A stretch of DNA of 64,000 nucleotides from Bacillus sp. N1-1 (GTDB taxonomy: Bacteria > Bacillota > Bacilli > Bacillales > Guptibacillaceae): contig NZ_CP046564.1 in assembly GCF_009818105.1 (NCBI RefSeq), positions 1,116,001-1,180,000 of the forward strand, written 5' to 3'. The notes under the pieces are model-generated. The model did no database searches, had not been told where the DNA came from, and was given only the letters and a program-made list of their open reading frames with translations. Positions 2,110 to 45,187 of this stretch are shown piece by piece. Each line of letters starts with the position of its first letter. The stretch's first letter is position 1. The translations under genes were made by a program, and so were the position numbers.

Positions 2110-2230
2110 CGTCAGGTCCCCCTTCAACAGTTGTACGTTAGTGTATGTAAACAGATTGAGTGGCGTATAGGCATGGAATTTCGCTACTATGATAAAATGA
2201 AACAACCATATGAAAAAGGATCGGGATGAC

Positions 2231-5200
2231 ATGGATTGTAAAATCAGCAATAAGCTTATAAAAGAAATGTGTGGCGATCGCTCTTTCAAAAAGGGAGAGT
2301 CTTATTTTTATTCCAATAAAGTAACGTTTCATCACGATCACTCGATCGGATATGAAGCCACAGTTCACGGAACGGAAGACTTTTATGTTACGGTAACGAC
2401 AGATGCAAATGGACACATCGAGGCACAATGTAGCTGCCCATCGCTCGCTACATTCCAAAAAGACTGTCAGCACATTGCGGCCGTTTTAATCGGCATCCGT
2501 CACCTTCAACAAAAAGAATCCCCCATGCAGAATGAGGATGGCAGCCTGGCAGAAAATTTTATGACGCTATTTACTGACAAATCAACTCCAGGGAGCGGCC
2601 GCCAACGCTTTTTTGAAAAGCGAAAGGTGCTTGATGTGTTCTTTACATTTAAGCCTGTTTCTCTTAACGATCAGGAGTTGCTAGGAATTGAAATTGCCAT
2701 CGAACAAGTCAATGTGCCTTCGATTCGCGCCTTTCTTCACAATGTTCACGAGGGGAAAGGAAGTGAAGTCTCGCCTGACGTGACCTATCATCCAGAGATT
2801 CACTGTTTTTCAAGTGAAGCAGATGCCATTCTTCATCATTTAATTCGCGTAGCCCGCGATGAAAAAGCCTTTCTAGAATCGGTTTCTTTCTCGCGCGACG
2901 ACCGTCAGCGGTCCGATACGTTACTGATCTCGCCATCGTCATGGAGCAGCTTGATTCCTTTACTAACTAGCGCTGAAAATATCAAAATCGAACATCAAGG
3001 CTCTTTGTTTGAACGCGTAAAAGTCGAAAAAGGCTCACCCCCGATTCGCTTTATGATCGACGAATGGGATGAAAACCACTGTCGCATTACCATCAAAGGT
3101 TTTGAGCGGATGACGATTTTAAATGCCTACCAATCCGTTTTATATCAAGGAACCGTCTATCAATTAGAGGCTCGCGACTTTACCCGCATGGCCGAGTTAA
3201 AGAAGATGCTTCCGTCAGGGAACAATGAGATTCCAATTCCGTATGAACAAATGGATCATTTCCTTGAAAAAGTCGTACCTGATTTAAAGCGAATGGGGCA
3301 TGTGGAGCTTTCAAAAGCATTTCGTGAAACGTATATGAAGACACCGTTAAAGGCACGGCTCTATCTCGATCGATTGAAAAACCGTCTGCTGGCAGGGCTT
3401 GAATTTCAGTATGAGGAAGTGGTCATACAGCCGTTAGAACGTCGGGATGCTCCGGGTTCGACAATCATTCGAGACATCGAACGGGAAGAAGAAATTCTGG
3501 ACATGATGGAAGAGAGCGGTTTTTCAAAAACAGATGGCGGTTATATGATGCAAAATGAAGAACTTGAGTATGAATTCCTCCATCATACCGTTCCGAAACT
3601 TCAATCCATATTAAAGCTTTACGCGACAACAGCTGTTCGAAATCGGCTCGTTCGAAAGAAGCACTATCCGAAAATAAATGTAAAGCTGAAGAAACGAGAG
3701 CGGACAAATTGGTTAGAATTCACCTTTGAAATGGATGGCATATCTGACAATCAAATTCGGGAAATATTAGCGGCATTAGAAGAAAAGCGTAAGTATTATC
3801 GCTTACCAAATGGATCGCTTTTGTCCCTTGAAACGAAAGAAATGGAGGATATGCATGAGTTTCTAACCACGGTTCCCCCGCAGGAACAGTTTGAGCCATA
3901 TTTTTCGCTTCCGGTCAAAAAAAGCGCTAGTCTAATGGGGACAATTGAAACGAATAGCATCTTTCTAGCAGACGCATCGTTTCGTAACTTTCTAGACACG
4001 ATGCGTCTTCCAAATCAAGGTGAGTTTAACGTGCCCGAATCGTTGGATCACATTTTGAGAGATTATCAAATACAGGGCTATCAATGGATGAAAACCTTAG
4101 CGAGCTACGGGTTTGGCGGTGTGTTAGCGGATGATATGGGACTTGGAAAAACGCTGCAAAGCATCACGTATATCGTGTCTGAGCTTAACGCTATTCGTGA
4201 AGAGCATAAACCGGTTCTGATCGTGTGTCCTTCCTCGCTTACGTATAATTGGTTCAATGAAATAAAGAAGTTTGCTCCTGAGCTCCGGGCGCGGATCATC
4301 GACGGCAATCAAGCAACGCGTGAAAAGCTCCAGCAGACGAGCAAAGAGATCGATGTGGTAATTACGTCTTATCCGTTACTTCGTCGCGACATCAGCTGGT
4401 ATGATAAGCAAACGTTCCATACGGTGTTTTTTGATGAAGCCCAGGCGTTTAAAAACCCTTCAACACAAACGGCCAGAACGGTTAAGAAAATCAAAGCGGA
4501 TCACCGGTTTGGTTTAACGGGAACCCCGGTTGAAAACGCGATTGAAGAGCTTTGGTCGATTTATCACGTTGTCTTTCCAGAGCTTTTTAAAGGGATCAAA
4601 GCCTATAGCAACTTAACGAAGAAAACGATCGCAAGAAGAGTACAACCTTTCTTACTTAGAAGAATGAAGGAAGACGTTCTGGCAGAGTTACCAGAAAAGC
4701 TGGAATCACTTGAATTAACCGAGCTATTGCCTGAACAGAAGAAGCTGTACGCAGCATACCTTGCGAAGCTAAGAACAGATACGTTAAAGCATCTCGATCG
4801 TGACACGATTAGTAAAAATCGCATTAAGATTTTGGCTGGGTTAACGCGACTGCGTCAGATTTGCTGTCATCCGTCTTTATTTGTGGACGGCTACAAAGGA
4901 AGCTCTGCTAAATTCGAGCAGCTACTTCAGATTATCGAAGATTCGAGACGAGCCGGTAGAAGAATGCTGATTTTCTCTCAATTTACGAAGATGCTTCAGT
5001 TAATCGGAAGAGAGCTTGCTGGAAGAGGACAAAGTTTTTTCTATCTGGATGGGGAGACGCCCTCTGGAGAAAGAGTGGAGACGTGCGATCGATTTAACGA
5101 AGGCGAACGGGATGTGTTTCTTATTTCTCTAAAAGCCGGGGGAACGGGTTTGAATTTAACCGGAGCGGATACGGTCGTTCTCTATGATCTTTGGTGGAAC

Positions 5201-21190: not shown

Positions 21191-21590
21191 TCCCGTTCTA
21201 AGGAGCCGGTTGCACTACTTACTCCCTATCATTCAAGTGCCCAGGCTAAAATGATAGTTCATCGCATTCTCTTTTTTTGTGTTGTGTTTCGGTGAAATTA
21301 ATGGAACTCTAATTGCTTATATAATCAATACCATAAAAAGGCGGGTATGTTAACAGTTTTATGCATGATTTTATACGAAAGGTTAAAGCAACTGGACGTC
21401 AGATAGAAAGCCAGGTCTTCTTTAAAGGAAACATTAATCCTATTGGGCAACAATGAAATAAAACAGTGGGATTTTCCGAATGAAATATACTTTATTTCCC
21501 AATACAAATATATCCATTTTAGAGATATGATTTTATTATACTCATTTGGTGAAGATCAGATGAGAAAAATACATATCGAGGAGGAGTAAA
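21191..21590. other. 400-base gap between HD-GYP and LysM genes
   Basis: An AT-rich region holding the promoters of two divergent genes. A 31-codon frame (21361-21456) opens with ATG but has no ribosome binding site and no recognised similarity. I see no RNA gene or strong repeat. Confidence 0.4.
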
Positions 21591-43092: not shown

Positions 43093-43399
43093 GCATACAT
43101 CCTATCGCTCTAAATTGTACGCTCCTCACATCCTTATTGACAGTACTGACTTCGATGAATATACTAAATATGTAAGAAAAAGGTGGAAAGGAATGGTACT
43201 TAGCGGATGTGGAATTAATCTTATTTAAACGGGATCAAACTCATATTTTCATAAAAATGAGAACCTGGAAAATAGGATTAGTCTGCCCAATTTAGTGATC
43301 ATTTCATCATGTACCTTTTTCAAATAAAAGGAGACGCCAAGTGCGTTTCTCTCATTATTTGTTTAAGCGTTTGCATGTTATTTGATATGGGATTAGCAG
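43093..43399. other. Gap between LysR gene and ABC-F leader
   Basis: About 300 bases without a convincing gene. It should hold the ABC-F promoter; TTGTTT near 43360 is a possible -35 but the -10 is uncertain. Confidence 0.35.
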
Positions 43400-43474
43400 C
43401 CTCTCCAGGGTTCTAGGAGAGGTTTATTTATGTTCGATAAACCTCTCAATTAAACTTATTAAGAGGTGACCTGC
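43400..43474 (+). promoter_or_regulatory. Attenuator-like leader of the ABC-F gene
   Basis: Four segments can pair in alternative ways. Segment 1 CCTCTCC (43400-43406) pairs with segment 2 GGAGAGG (43416-43422). Segment 2 extended, GAGAGGTTTAT (43417-43427), pairs over 11 bases with segment 3 ATAAACCTCTC (43437-43447). Part of segment 3, ACCTCT, pairs with AGAGGT (43462-43467), the ribosome binding site of the ABC-F gene. A short reading frame with its own ribosome binding site lies across segments 2-3. This fits translational attenuation triggered by a stalled ribosome. Confidence 0.65.
43430..43453 (+). CDS. Leader peptide MFDKPLN
   Basis: ATG TTC GAT AAA CCT CTC AAT TAA encodes seven residues, with GGAGAGG ending seven bases before the ATG. 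The frame covers the downstream arm of an 11-base hairpin and ends 21 bases before the ABC-F start codon. Antibiotic-responsive ABC-F genes such as vmlR and msr/vga relatives are known to have short leader peptides; stalling here would keep the ABC-F ribosome binding site free. That function is inferred. Confidence 0.6.
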   Translation: MFDKPLN

Positions 43475-45187
43475 ATGGCGCGAGTGATACAAGTGAAAGA
43501 ACTGCAGAAAAGTTTTGGCGAACGGGAGATTTTAAGTGACGTTAGCTTTGATATACGAAATGGCGAAAAGATTGGTTTAGTCGGCTGGAATGGAGCTGGA
43601 AAATCAACACTCGTCAATATTCTGATGAAAAGGATTGAACCAGATAAAGGCTCTGTGACTGTACCCCATTTGAAAATTGGGTATTTGCCTCAATCAACAG
43701 ATAATCACCTAGCTGTTGATGCTGAACTTTTCGGGGAGAGGTTAATGGAACAAAGTAAAAAGCTAGGGTTTCAGAAAGAGCGTTGGGAGCAGGAGAATCT
43801 CCAACATTTAAGTGGCGGTGAAAAACTAAAATTGTCTTTAGCAAAGATCTGGGCAAGTTCTCCTGAGTTTTTAATCCTAGATGAACCAACGAATCATCTC
43901 GATATGCAGGGGGGTAAATGGCTTATTGAAGAAGTGAGAAGTTATTCAGGTGCTGCCATCATCATTTCACATGATCGCTATTTTTTAGATGAAACCGTGA
44001 CAAAAATATTTGAATTGGAATCTGGAAAATTAACAATCTACGAAGGGAATTACTCGTTCTATCGAAACGAAAAACAGAGAAGATACGAACAGAATATGCG
44101 TGATTATGAAAAACAACAGCGTAAGGTAGAGATGATTGAACAGCAAATCAGCACCTTGAAAGACTGGTCAGCTAAAGGCCATCGTGAAGCTGGAAAAGGA
44201 GGGTCCAATTCTGAAAATCGTCAAATGGGATTGCGGGAATTCGAACGAGCGAAGGCAAAGAAAAAGGATAACCAGATAAAATCGAAGCTGAAACGGTTAA
44301 ATCTAGAGCTTAAGAAAGATGGAGTCGAAAAGCCCAGGGAAGAGAAAAGAGTATCTTTCCATTTTGAATCAACATCGAAGCGTGGCAAACGAATTCTCGA
44401 AGCCAAAGGAATTAAGAAGGAATTTGGGGATCGCCTCCTCTTTGATAAAAGTCACTTTTACATCAAGCATGGTGATCGAATTGGACTAATAGGCTCCAAT
44501 GGTTCAGGAAAAACAACCTTTATTAAACTCCTTCTTGAGCAGGAACAGCTTACGAAAGGTTCGCTTTGGATAAGTGAATCAACAAAAGTGGCGTATCTTT
44601 CACAGGATGTAACGGACCTCCCAGGCCAAAAAACACCGTTAGATTACCTTGATTTAACGAATCGACAGCAGGAAACAAAAGCGAGAACGCTTCTTGCCAA
44701 TATGGGTATTCAGCAAGAAATTCTTGGGAAACCCATTTCTCAATTGAGTCTAGGAGAACGAACGCGAATAAAGTTAATCCATATGATTTTGATGGATTAT
44801 GACTTCTTGATCCTAGATGAACCGACAAATCATCTCGATCTTCCAAGCCGAGAAGAGCTGGAAAGAACGCTTAGTACGTATACAGGTACGCTCTTGATCG
44901 TTTCACACGACAGGTATTTAATTGAAAAACTGTGTACAAAATTATTAGTTATCGACAATGGGCAAATGAAGCGGGTTGAAGTAGGGATTAAGGAATATGA
45001 GGAAAAACAAAAGAAGAAGGAGACAGGAAGCGAAAACATAAGGGAAGAATTAGCTGTCATTGAAACCAAAATGACAGAGCTCCTAGGCAAAATTAGCTAC
45101 TTGTCAGCAGGTACGGAGGAATATAAATCGATCGATAAAGAGCTAATGAAGCTGATGGATTTAAAAAGAAAATTGAATAACCTATGA
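43475..45187 (+). CDS. VmlR-like antibiotic-resistance ABC-F ATPase
   Basis: A 570-residue soluble protein with two ABC ATPase domains and no membrane segment, hence ABC-F. Domain 1 has Walker A GWNGAGKST, signature LSGGEKLKLSLAK and Walker B FLILDEPTNHLD. The linker between (about residues 190-290) is long, charged and carries the antibiotic-resistance-domain loop (ISTLKDWSAKGHREAGKGG). Domain 2 has GSNGSGKTT, LSLGERTRIKL and FLILDEPTNHLDLPSREEL. The sequence resembles Bacillus VmlR, which displaces lincosamides, streptogramin A and pleuromutilins from the ribosome. ATG 43475 follows AAGAGGTG by six bases; expression is probably leader-controlled. Confidence 0.85.
   Translation: MARVIQVKELQKSFGEREILSDVSFDIRNGEKIGLVGWNGAGKSTLVNILMKRIEPDKGSVTVPHLKIGYLPQSTDNHLAVDAELFGERLMEQSKKLGFQKERWEQENLQHLSGGEKLKLSLAKIWASSPEFLILDEPTNHLDMQGGKWLIEEVRSYSGAAIIISHDRYFLDETVTKIFELESGKLTIYEGNYSFYRNEKQRRYEQNMRDYEKQQRKVEMIEQQISTLKDWSAKGHREAGKGGSNSENRQMGLREFERAKAKKKDNQIKSKLKRLNLELKKDGVEKPREEKRVSFHFESTSKRGKRILEAKGIKKEFGDRLLFDKSHFYIKHGDRIGLIGSNGSGKTTFIKLLLEQEQLTKGSLWISESTKVAYLSQDVTDLPGQKTPLDYLDLTNRQQETKARTLLANMGIQQEILGKPISQLSLGERTRIKLIHMILMDYDFLILDEPTNHLDLPSREELERTLSTYTGTLLIVSHDRYLIEKLCTKLLVIDNGQMKRVEVGIKEYEEKQKKKETGSENIREELAVIETKMTELLGKISYLSAGTEEYKSIDKELMKLMDLKRKLNNL

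Follow-up and report, generated by a model that had tools for sequence, protein, structure and literature searches.

What controls the ABC-F gene at position 43,475 of the window, the stretch of 64,000 nucleotides analyzed here, and on which codons would a ribosome sense the drug? The original prediction described a seven-codon leader frame, MFDKPLN, with its own ribosome binding site, among switchable hairpins directly upstream of a VmlR-like ABC-F gene. The assignment of the gene is borne out. The protein scores 495.6 bits against NCBIfam NF000355, above the cut-off of 380, and its nearest solved structure is 8buu (609 bits; named ExpZ in that entry), described as the model of the VmlR2–ribosome complex (PMC10201436). 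VmlR itself (6ha8) follows as the next solved relative at 390 bits. The genome containing the window consists of one contig of 4.5 Mb. Pseudalkalibacillus hwajinpoensis, whose protein is 92% identical to the ABC-F protein of the window, is among the closest named records. The hairpins at 43400 are most likely the 3′ end of a leader of about 300 nucleotides that belongs to an established class of RNA switches sensing antibiotics. Its elements are listed in Table 1.

Table 1. Elements of the leader and the ABC-F gene in the window (SD, Shine-Dalgarno sequence)
Feature	Positions	Strand	Evidence
Predicted promoter, TTGACA (43137–43142), 17-base spacer, TATACT (43160–43165)	43137–43165	+	sequence reading
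Tripeptide uORF ATG TGG AAT TAA (MWN*), likely drug sensor	43207–43218	+	conservation
SL-1, anti-antiterminator, TAATCTTATTT (43216–43226) with AAATAGGATTA (43270–43280)	43216–43280	+	pairing, 84 of 92 leaders
Antiterminator arm GAA-CCTGGA, pairs with 43404–43413 (TCCAGG-G-TTC)	43261–43269	+	covarying arms
SL-2-like hairpin, CAAATAA...TTATTTG around GAGACGC/GCGTTTC	43321–43361	+	sequence and folds
SL-3, CCTCTCC (43400–43406) with GGAGAGG (43416–43422), and interrupted T tract TTTATTTAT (43423–43431)	43400–43431	+	orthologue pairing
2:3 anti-sequestering helix, GAGAGGTTTAT (43417–43427) with ATAAACCTCTC (43437–43447)	43417–43447	+	pairing, permutation
3:4 SD-sequestering helix (SL-4 equivalent), 43441–43446 with 43462–43467	43441–43467	+	pairing, permutation
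SD of the ABC-F gene, AGAGGTGA	43462–43469	+	read from sequence; invariant in 12 close orthologues
VmlR2-like ABC-F ribosomal protection gene	43475–45187	+	570 aa; NCBIfam NF000355

The likely sensor frame

The predicted promoter has counterparts in many of the relatives inspected, in which TTGACA-like and TATACT-like boxes were seen by eye, uncounted, before the leader. Downstream of it, the tripeptide uORF reads MWN in 11 of the 12 close orthologues and MWI in L003, and its stop codon forms the start of the 11-bp SL-1. A wider set of 92 leaders comprises L003 and the leaders collected from the genus and the order. A three-codon ATG frame whose stop opens a pairing arm is present in 79 of them, with pairing required at at least 10 of 14 positions; in L096–L098, the arm found to pair with the uORF differs from the usual GGATTA arm. 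The tripeptides are MWN (31 leaders), MKY (12), MKN (10), MKL (7), MKF (6), and MDN (6), along with the rarer MEN (3), MRI (2), MWI (1), and MKT (1). Twelve leaders have no such frame, and one further case is weak. Ten of these twelve come from one genus (L039–L048); in the four of them that were inspected, ATG TGG is kept and the third-codon stop is lost, resulting in a longer uORF (MWKTLIFLG* in L039). When SL-1 was located by pairing alone, independently of the ATG, it was found in 84 of the 92 leaders, and an ATG lies exactly 9 nt upstream of it in 71 of these 84. The next commonest offset is 23 nt, observed in 35 of the 84.

This second offset is that of an overlapping upstream frame starting at ATG 43193 (MVLSGCGINLI*), which might act as the sensor by itself or jointly with the tripeptide. 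The sequence AAGGTGG is located 6 nt upstream of this ATG, which is retained in 10 of the 12 close orthologues. Since the leader of a streptomycete ABC-F gene is described as having overlapping short uORFs (mBio, PMC12421871), the overlapping ATG 43193 is worth testing. However, the codon is ACG in L003 and TTG in L036, the tripeptide ATG is found at its offset in 71 leaders as opposed to 35, and in paralogue leaders such as L010 the terminal TGA of the corresponding frame overlaps the tripeptide ATG. A sensing role for this frame, alone or shared, is improbable. As judged by eye, the start or end of MVLSGCGINLI* is lost beyond near relatives; the same applies to MLFDMGLAASPGF* at 43375, and neither was retained as a candidate sensor.

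The MFDKPLN frame exists as described: ATG TTC GAT AAA CCT CTC AAT TAA occupies 43430–43453, and GGAGAGG precedes it at 43416–43422. Its conservation is a different matter. In the alignment of the 12 close orthologues, the ATG is kept in five (the window, L017, L018, L020, and L023), is GTG in L019 and CTA in L021 and L022, and is absent in L003 and L036–L038. The seven-codon frame is found in just two of the twelve, L017 (MFHKPLN) being the only sharer; the frame runs through to other stops in L018 and L020 and ends after two codons in L023. MFDKPLN was rejected as the sensor on account of this lack of conservation among the close orthologues, in which the pairing arms of the hairpins are conserved. 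Furthermore, GGAGAGG, the apparent SD of this frame, is the 3′ arm of SL-3 and would be base-paired in either of the two proposed states. In the original proposal, a ribosome stalled on MFDKPLN keeps the SD of the gene free, and control is by translational attenuation only. In local folding, a footprint over 43430–43453 raises SD accessibility from 0.33 to 0.60, but the effect in the full leader is small (0.23 to 0.28), and a wider footprint over 43417–43447 gives 0.19 in the full leader. This reading also leaves the conserved upstream part of the leader unexplained, and we consider it very improbable. The accompanying preference for translational rather than transcriptional control is not established either, because transcription attenuation is the principal layer in the published vmlR mechanism (PMC9226507). 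What stands of the original interpretation is a ribosome-sensed leader whose switchable hairpins can hide the SD of a gene for a VmlR-like ABC-F protein. The codons that sense the drug are most likely those of MWN*, about 220 bases upstream of MFDKPLN, and the assignment is corrected accordingly.

SL-1 and the antiterminator

An alignment of the leaders, denoted as A2, was built on the criterion ATG-N6-TAAT plus pairing, by which 16 of the 92 leaders were skipped; after removal of identical rows, 73 were left. Of these selected rows, 72 were used for R1, a covariance model covering the 5′ portion of the leader (L098 was left out). Through this criterion, the presence of the uORF and of the stem was a condition for inclusion in both A2 and R1. 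SL-1 cells are paired in 97.0% of 792 cases in A2, as compared with 93.6% in shuffles and 32.7–64.0% in slid versions of the stem. Double-sided changes occur in 17 cells, all of them at a single pair, and the covariation of SL-1 in A2 is not above that of shuffles (1 pair changed on both sides versus 1.1). RNAalifold predicted zero pairs for the 72-row alignment. In the equilibrium fold of the free leader, SL-1 has a probability of 0.98.

The arms of the antiterminator co-vary across leaders. In the window, CCTGGA lies directly before the second arm of SL-1 and is complementary to TCCAGG, which is part of the 5′ arm of the hairpin at 43400. The duplex of each leader with its own partner averages −15.8 kcal/mol, compared with −11.5 kcal/mol for permuted partners (sd 0.28; 90 leaders), and none of the 2000 permutations was as low; the duplex of the window has −14.0 kcal/mol. 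The helices take 58 distinct forms, such as CCTGGAGA/TCTCCAGG, CCTAGAGA/TCTCTAGG, and AGAAACCTG/CAGGTTTCT. This test covered 90 of the 92 leaders (L051 and L103 were dropped), including rows in which the arm is mis-set (L092 and L095) or doubtful (L097 and L105). Since permutation tests ignore relatedness, the values given here and below are not strict probabilities.

In addition to the SL-2-like hairpin, a TTATTT motif is present at 43355–43360 and is repeated at 43378–43383. By sequence, these elements appear to resemble the published pause hairpin and the NusG-dependent TTNTTT pause motif.

The terminator-like hairpin and the predicted downstream switch

All 84 cells of the SL-3 stem are paired across the 12 close orthologues. 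Among the more distant leaders, 63 of 65 have a T run of at least 5 behind the homologous stem, as do all 13 same-genus paralogue leaders, which identifies the first stem (43400–43422) as the terminator-like one. The SL-3 hairpin of the window has −12.1 kcal/mol, its longest T run is 3, and its tail score is the 12th weakest of 90. A longest T run of 3 is common to all seven members of the window's group, as opposed to at least 6 in the 13 paralogue leaders; five sister leaders have longest runs of 4, 4, 4, 5, and 6. The hairpins of the group are not weaker, with a mean of −15.8 kcal/mol versus −12.2 kcal/mol for the paralogues.

The three pairings proposed originally, namely the SL-3 stem, the 11-bp stem of the 2:3 helix, and ACCTCT with AGAGGT in the 3:4 helix, are correct to the letter and mutually exclusive, and a T run is indeed absent after the 11-bp stem. 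A Watson–Crick stem of this length occurred in 1 of 1000 dinucleotide shuffles of 43400–43474, indicating that it exceeds chance. The fold of 43340–43500 has a z-score of −2.02, with 7 of 200 shuffles equally stable. In the 12 orthologues, 93.5% of 124 cells are paired in the 2:3 helix, with covariation within the shuffle range, and 98.6% of 71 cells in the 3:4 helix, which is almost invariant; the distal arms vary little at this distance. Permutation tests on 73 of the 90 leaders gave −10.75 versus −9.6 for the 2:3 helix (sd 0.22) and −8.45 versus −7.22 for the 3:4 helix (sd 0.23), own versus permuted partners, with 0 of 2000 permutations as low in either case. This preference is weaker than that of the antiterminator. 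The 2:3 helices of the window's group are among the strongest of the 73, at −16.1 to −19.8 kcal/mol in its seven members and −17.4 kcal/mol in the window. Both a pairing that sequesters the SD and a pairing that undoes it are thus present and favor their own partners, and a switch role is predicted for them.

Proposed mechanism

Considering these elements together, the region 43137–43474 is very probably a vmlR-type ribosome-sensed attenuator that controls the VmlR2-like ABC-F gene. In the absence of drug, ribosomes would complete MWN, allowing SL-1 to form and block the antiterminator. SL-3 would then form, and RNA polymerase would tend to terminate at the T tract that follows it. In read-through transcripts, 43441–43446 would pair with the SD of the gene, thereby blocking translation. 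Stalling at initiation or at the first peptide bonds, caused by a drug that by analogy with vmlR may be a lincosamide, a pleuromutilin, or a streptogramin A, would leave the ribosome on MWN, where it would cover the first arm of SL-1 (43216–43226). With SL-1 prevented, 43261–43269 would pair with 43404–43413 and break SL-3, and the freed 3′ arm of SL-3 would pair with 43437–43447 to release the SD. The elements, their conservation, and the covariation of the antiterminator arms are observed directly. We infer that the leader is transcribed, MWN is translated, ribosomes stall there, and the gene is induced; how much termination and SD hiding each contribute is likewise a matter of interpretation. 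Among the features that speak against the model are the interrupted T tract and the distance of 14 nt from the SD of MWN (AAAGGA) to its frame.

The downstream part of the switch behaves in local folds as the model would have it: when the antiterminator occupies segment 1, the 2:3 helix reaches 1.0 and SD accessibility is 0.59, and when SL-3 is formed, the 3:4 helix reaches 0.97 and SD accessibility is 0.26. The full switch was not reproduced by equilibrium folds with a ribosome on MWN at nine transcript lengths. The antiterminator reached 0.09–0.41 at six lengths and 0.00 at three, that is, at ends 43422 and 43428, where SL-3 takes 0.99–1.0, and in the full-length transcript, whose SD accessibility remains at 0.23. 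The model therefore needs co-transcriptional folding.

The balance between the two layers of control may have shifted in the window's group. In one version of the attenuator model, the leader of this species group acts mainly through SD hiding and its terminator is weakened, as the short T runs in all seven members, set against the long ones of the paralogue leaders, and the strength of the 2:3 helix would suggest. Yet a tract with seven T in nine bases may still suffice for termination, the SL-3 hairpins of the group are not weaker, and the tail of the window is the 12th weakest rather than the weakest; a single clade, moreover, represents one event. At the drug-free equilibrium, the 2:3 helix is favored over the 3:4 helix (0.83 versus 0.16), and translation would consequently stay on. 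In B. subtilis, disruption of SL-4 did not derepress vmlR: induction was lowered and basal expression was not raised (PMC9226507), so that even for vmlR the account given there does not demonstrate repression through a hidden SD. Predominant SD hiding is accordingly possible but rather unlikely, and a larger translational share of control in the group is plausible. A broader scenario is somewhat more doubtful. It holds that control by the leader of the group, with the Trp-containing MWN as the sensor, changed from terminator-based to mainly SD-based through a broken T tract and a longer 2:3 helix, and that MKN and an unbroken T tract were retained in the sister leader of the same genome. Since the module is also found before LmrB-like efflux pumps and an SDR enzyme, it would, in this scenario, be a portable sensor. 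The two leaders of this genome, one with MWN and an interrupted T tract and the other with MKN and an unbroken one, form a natural pair with which the transcriptional and translational layers could be separated.

Comparison with known systems

The attenuator proposed here follows that of B. subtilis vmlR as described by Takada et al. (2022, PMC9226507), in which lincomycin-stalled ribosomes on MIN prevent the anti-antiterminator, so that the antiterminator forms. A further pairing is proposed in that report to undo the SD-hiding hairpin, and changes in the start codon and SD of the uORF virtually eliminated expression. The vmlR leader has the SD AGAAGGG and the uORF AUGAUUAAC. Both systems contain a tripeptide uORF inside the anti-antiterminator stem, an antiterminator, a terminator hairpin, an SD-sequestering hairpin with a competing pairing, and an ARE2 ABC-F gene downstream. 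In contrast to the vmlR leader with its MIN, that of the window has MWN, an interrupted T tract after SL-3, and a long 2:3 helix, and its gene is VmlR2-like rather than VmlR. As far as the described elements of vmlR go, each except the drug response and pausing appears to have a sequence counterpart here, the T tract being the weak point. The kind of mechanism is thus already published, and the window is most likely a new case before a VmlR2-like ABC-F gene, distinguished by MWN, the interrupted U-tract, and the strong SD switch. A non-model ABC-F gene is thereby placed under a published mechanism.

Very short uORFs combined with a terminator also occur in the attenuator of Listeria lmo0919, whose uORF differs from MWN, and erm-type attenuators have a longer leader peptide and are not known to include a terminator layer. 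In erm-type systems such as ermC (PMC10219788), a drug-stalled ribosome alters an SD-hiding hairpin, similar to the proposal made here. The closest characterized protein is VmlR2 (Obana et al. 2023, PMC10201436), for which a short uORF in the leader is reported with the consensus MK[L/Q], as compared with MWN in the window and MKN in the paralogue of the same genome. The same report describes clostridial cplR, which shares a very short uORF and a terminator with the window and in which termination and SD hiding act together; it differs in its uORF (MRI in C. difficile) and in having the SD inside the terminator stem. In a word search, MWN was not found in the main texts of PMC9226507, PMC10201436, and PMC10219788.

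The Rfam family RF02452 (ncr1575), filed as a 'Bacillus sRNA', has a consensus that contains AUGAUUAACUAAUCUUAU...AUAGGAUUAG and a terminator, as does a vmlR-type leader. The window scores 23.4 bits against it, under the gathering score of 60, and the paralogue leader of the same genome (L010) scores 65.3 bits. The model matches 11 of the 20 leaders tried (E 0.01), two of them above gathering, one being this paralogue leader. It is possible that ncr1575 is misfiled as an sRNA and is in fact a vmlR-type leader. The only Rfam family that reaches its gathering score in the window is the c-di-GMP-II riboswitch, at 21195–21278 on the minus strand (57.9 bits; gathering score 53.5).

Distribution of the leader and its target genes

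Of 397 genomes from the order, 221 have a match to R1 (E ≤0.01), representing 75 of 135 genera, and a close relative of the ABC-F protein (E 1e-130) is found in 84 of the 397. These counts suggest that a vmlR-type leader is common in the order. The genome of the window contains a second leader of the same kind at 769377–769497 (L010, L106), with MKN and an unbroken T run. The gene behind it encodes an ABC-F paralogue with 48% identity, for which 8buu is again the nearest solved structure. R1 scores 111.6 bits for this leader and 109.5 bits for that of the window, both high by construction since the two are training rows of the model; the next match in the genome has an E value of 0.44.

Forty weaker R1 matches were hand-picked among about 150 matches listed. 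ABC-F genes follow 36 of them, two precede a DHA2-family MFS pump that most resembles LmrB but scores under its cut-off of 800 (487 and 454 bits), one precedes an SDR oxidoreductase gene, and one has no adjoining drug gene. The published MIN frame, exactly ATGATTAACTAA, is present in 11 of the 40, and the training rows of R1 contain no MIN. Among the 30 loci closest to one LmrB-like pump, the leader was detected in four at E ≤0.001 and in two more at E 0.01–0.02. Two of the four were already known, and the matches in the other two lie about 930 nt (L185) and about 200 nt upstream of the gene. The leaders before LmrB-like MFS efflux genes are L172 (the same locus as L202), L176 (the same locus as L179), L180, and L185.

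Two further loci lie outside these gene families. At L145, an SDR oxidoreductase gene (2165–3064, minus strand) is preceded by a leader with the tripeptide MKF and a T-tract hairpin; such an enzyme is an unexpected target for a drug-sensing attenuator. L175 is an orphan leader with MIN, the SD AGAAGGG, and a T-tract hairpin. It has no adjoining ABC-F gene, and the next frame of at least 90 aa, about 550 nt downstream, encodes a diacylglycerol kinase.
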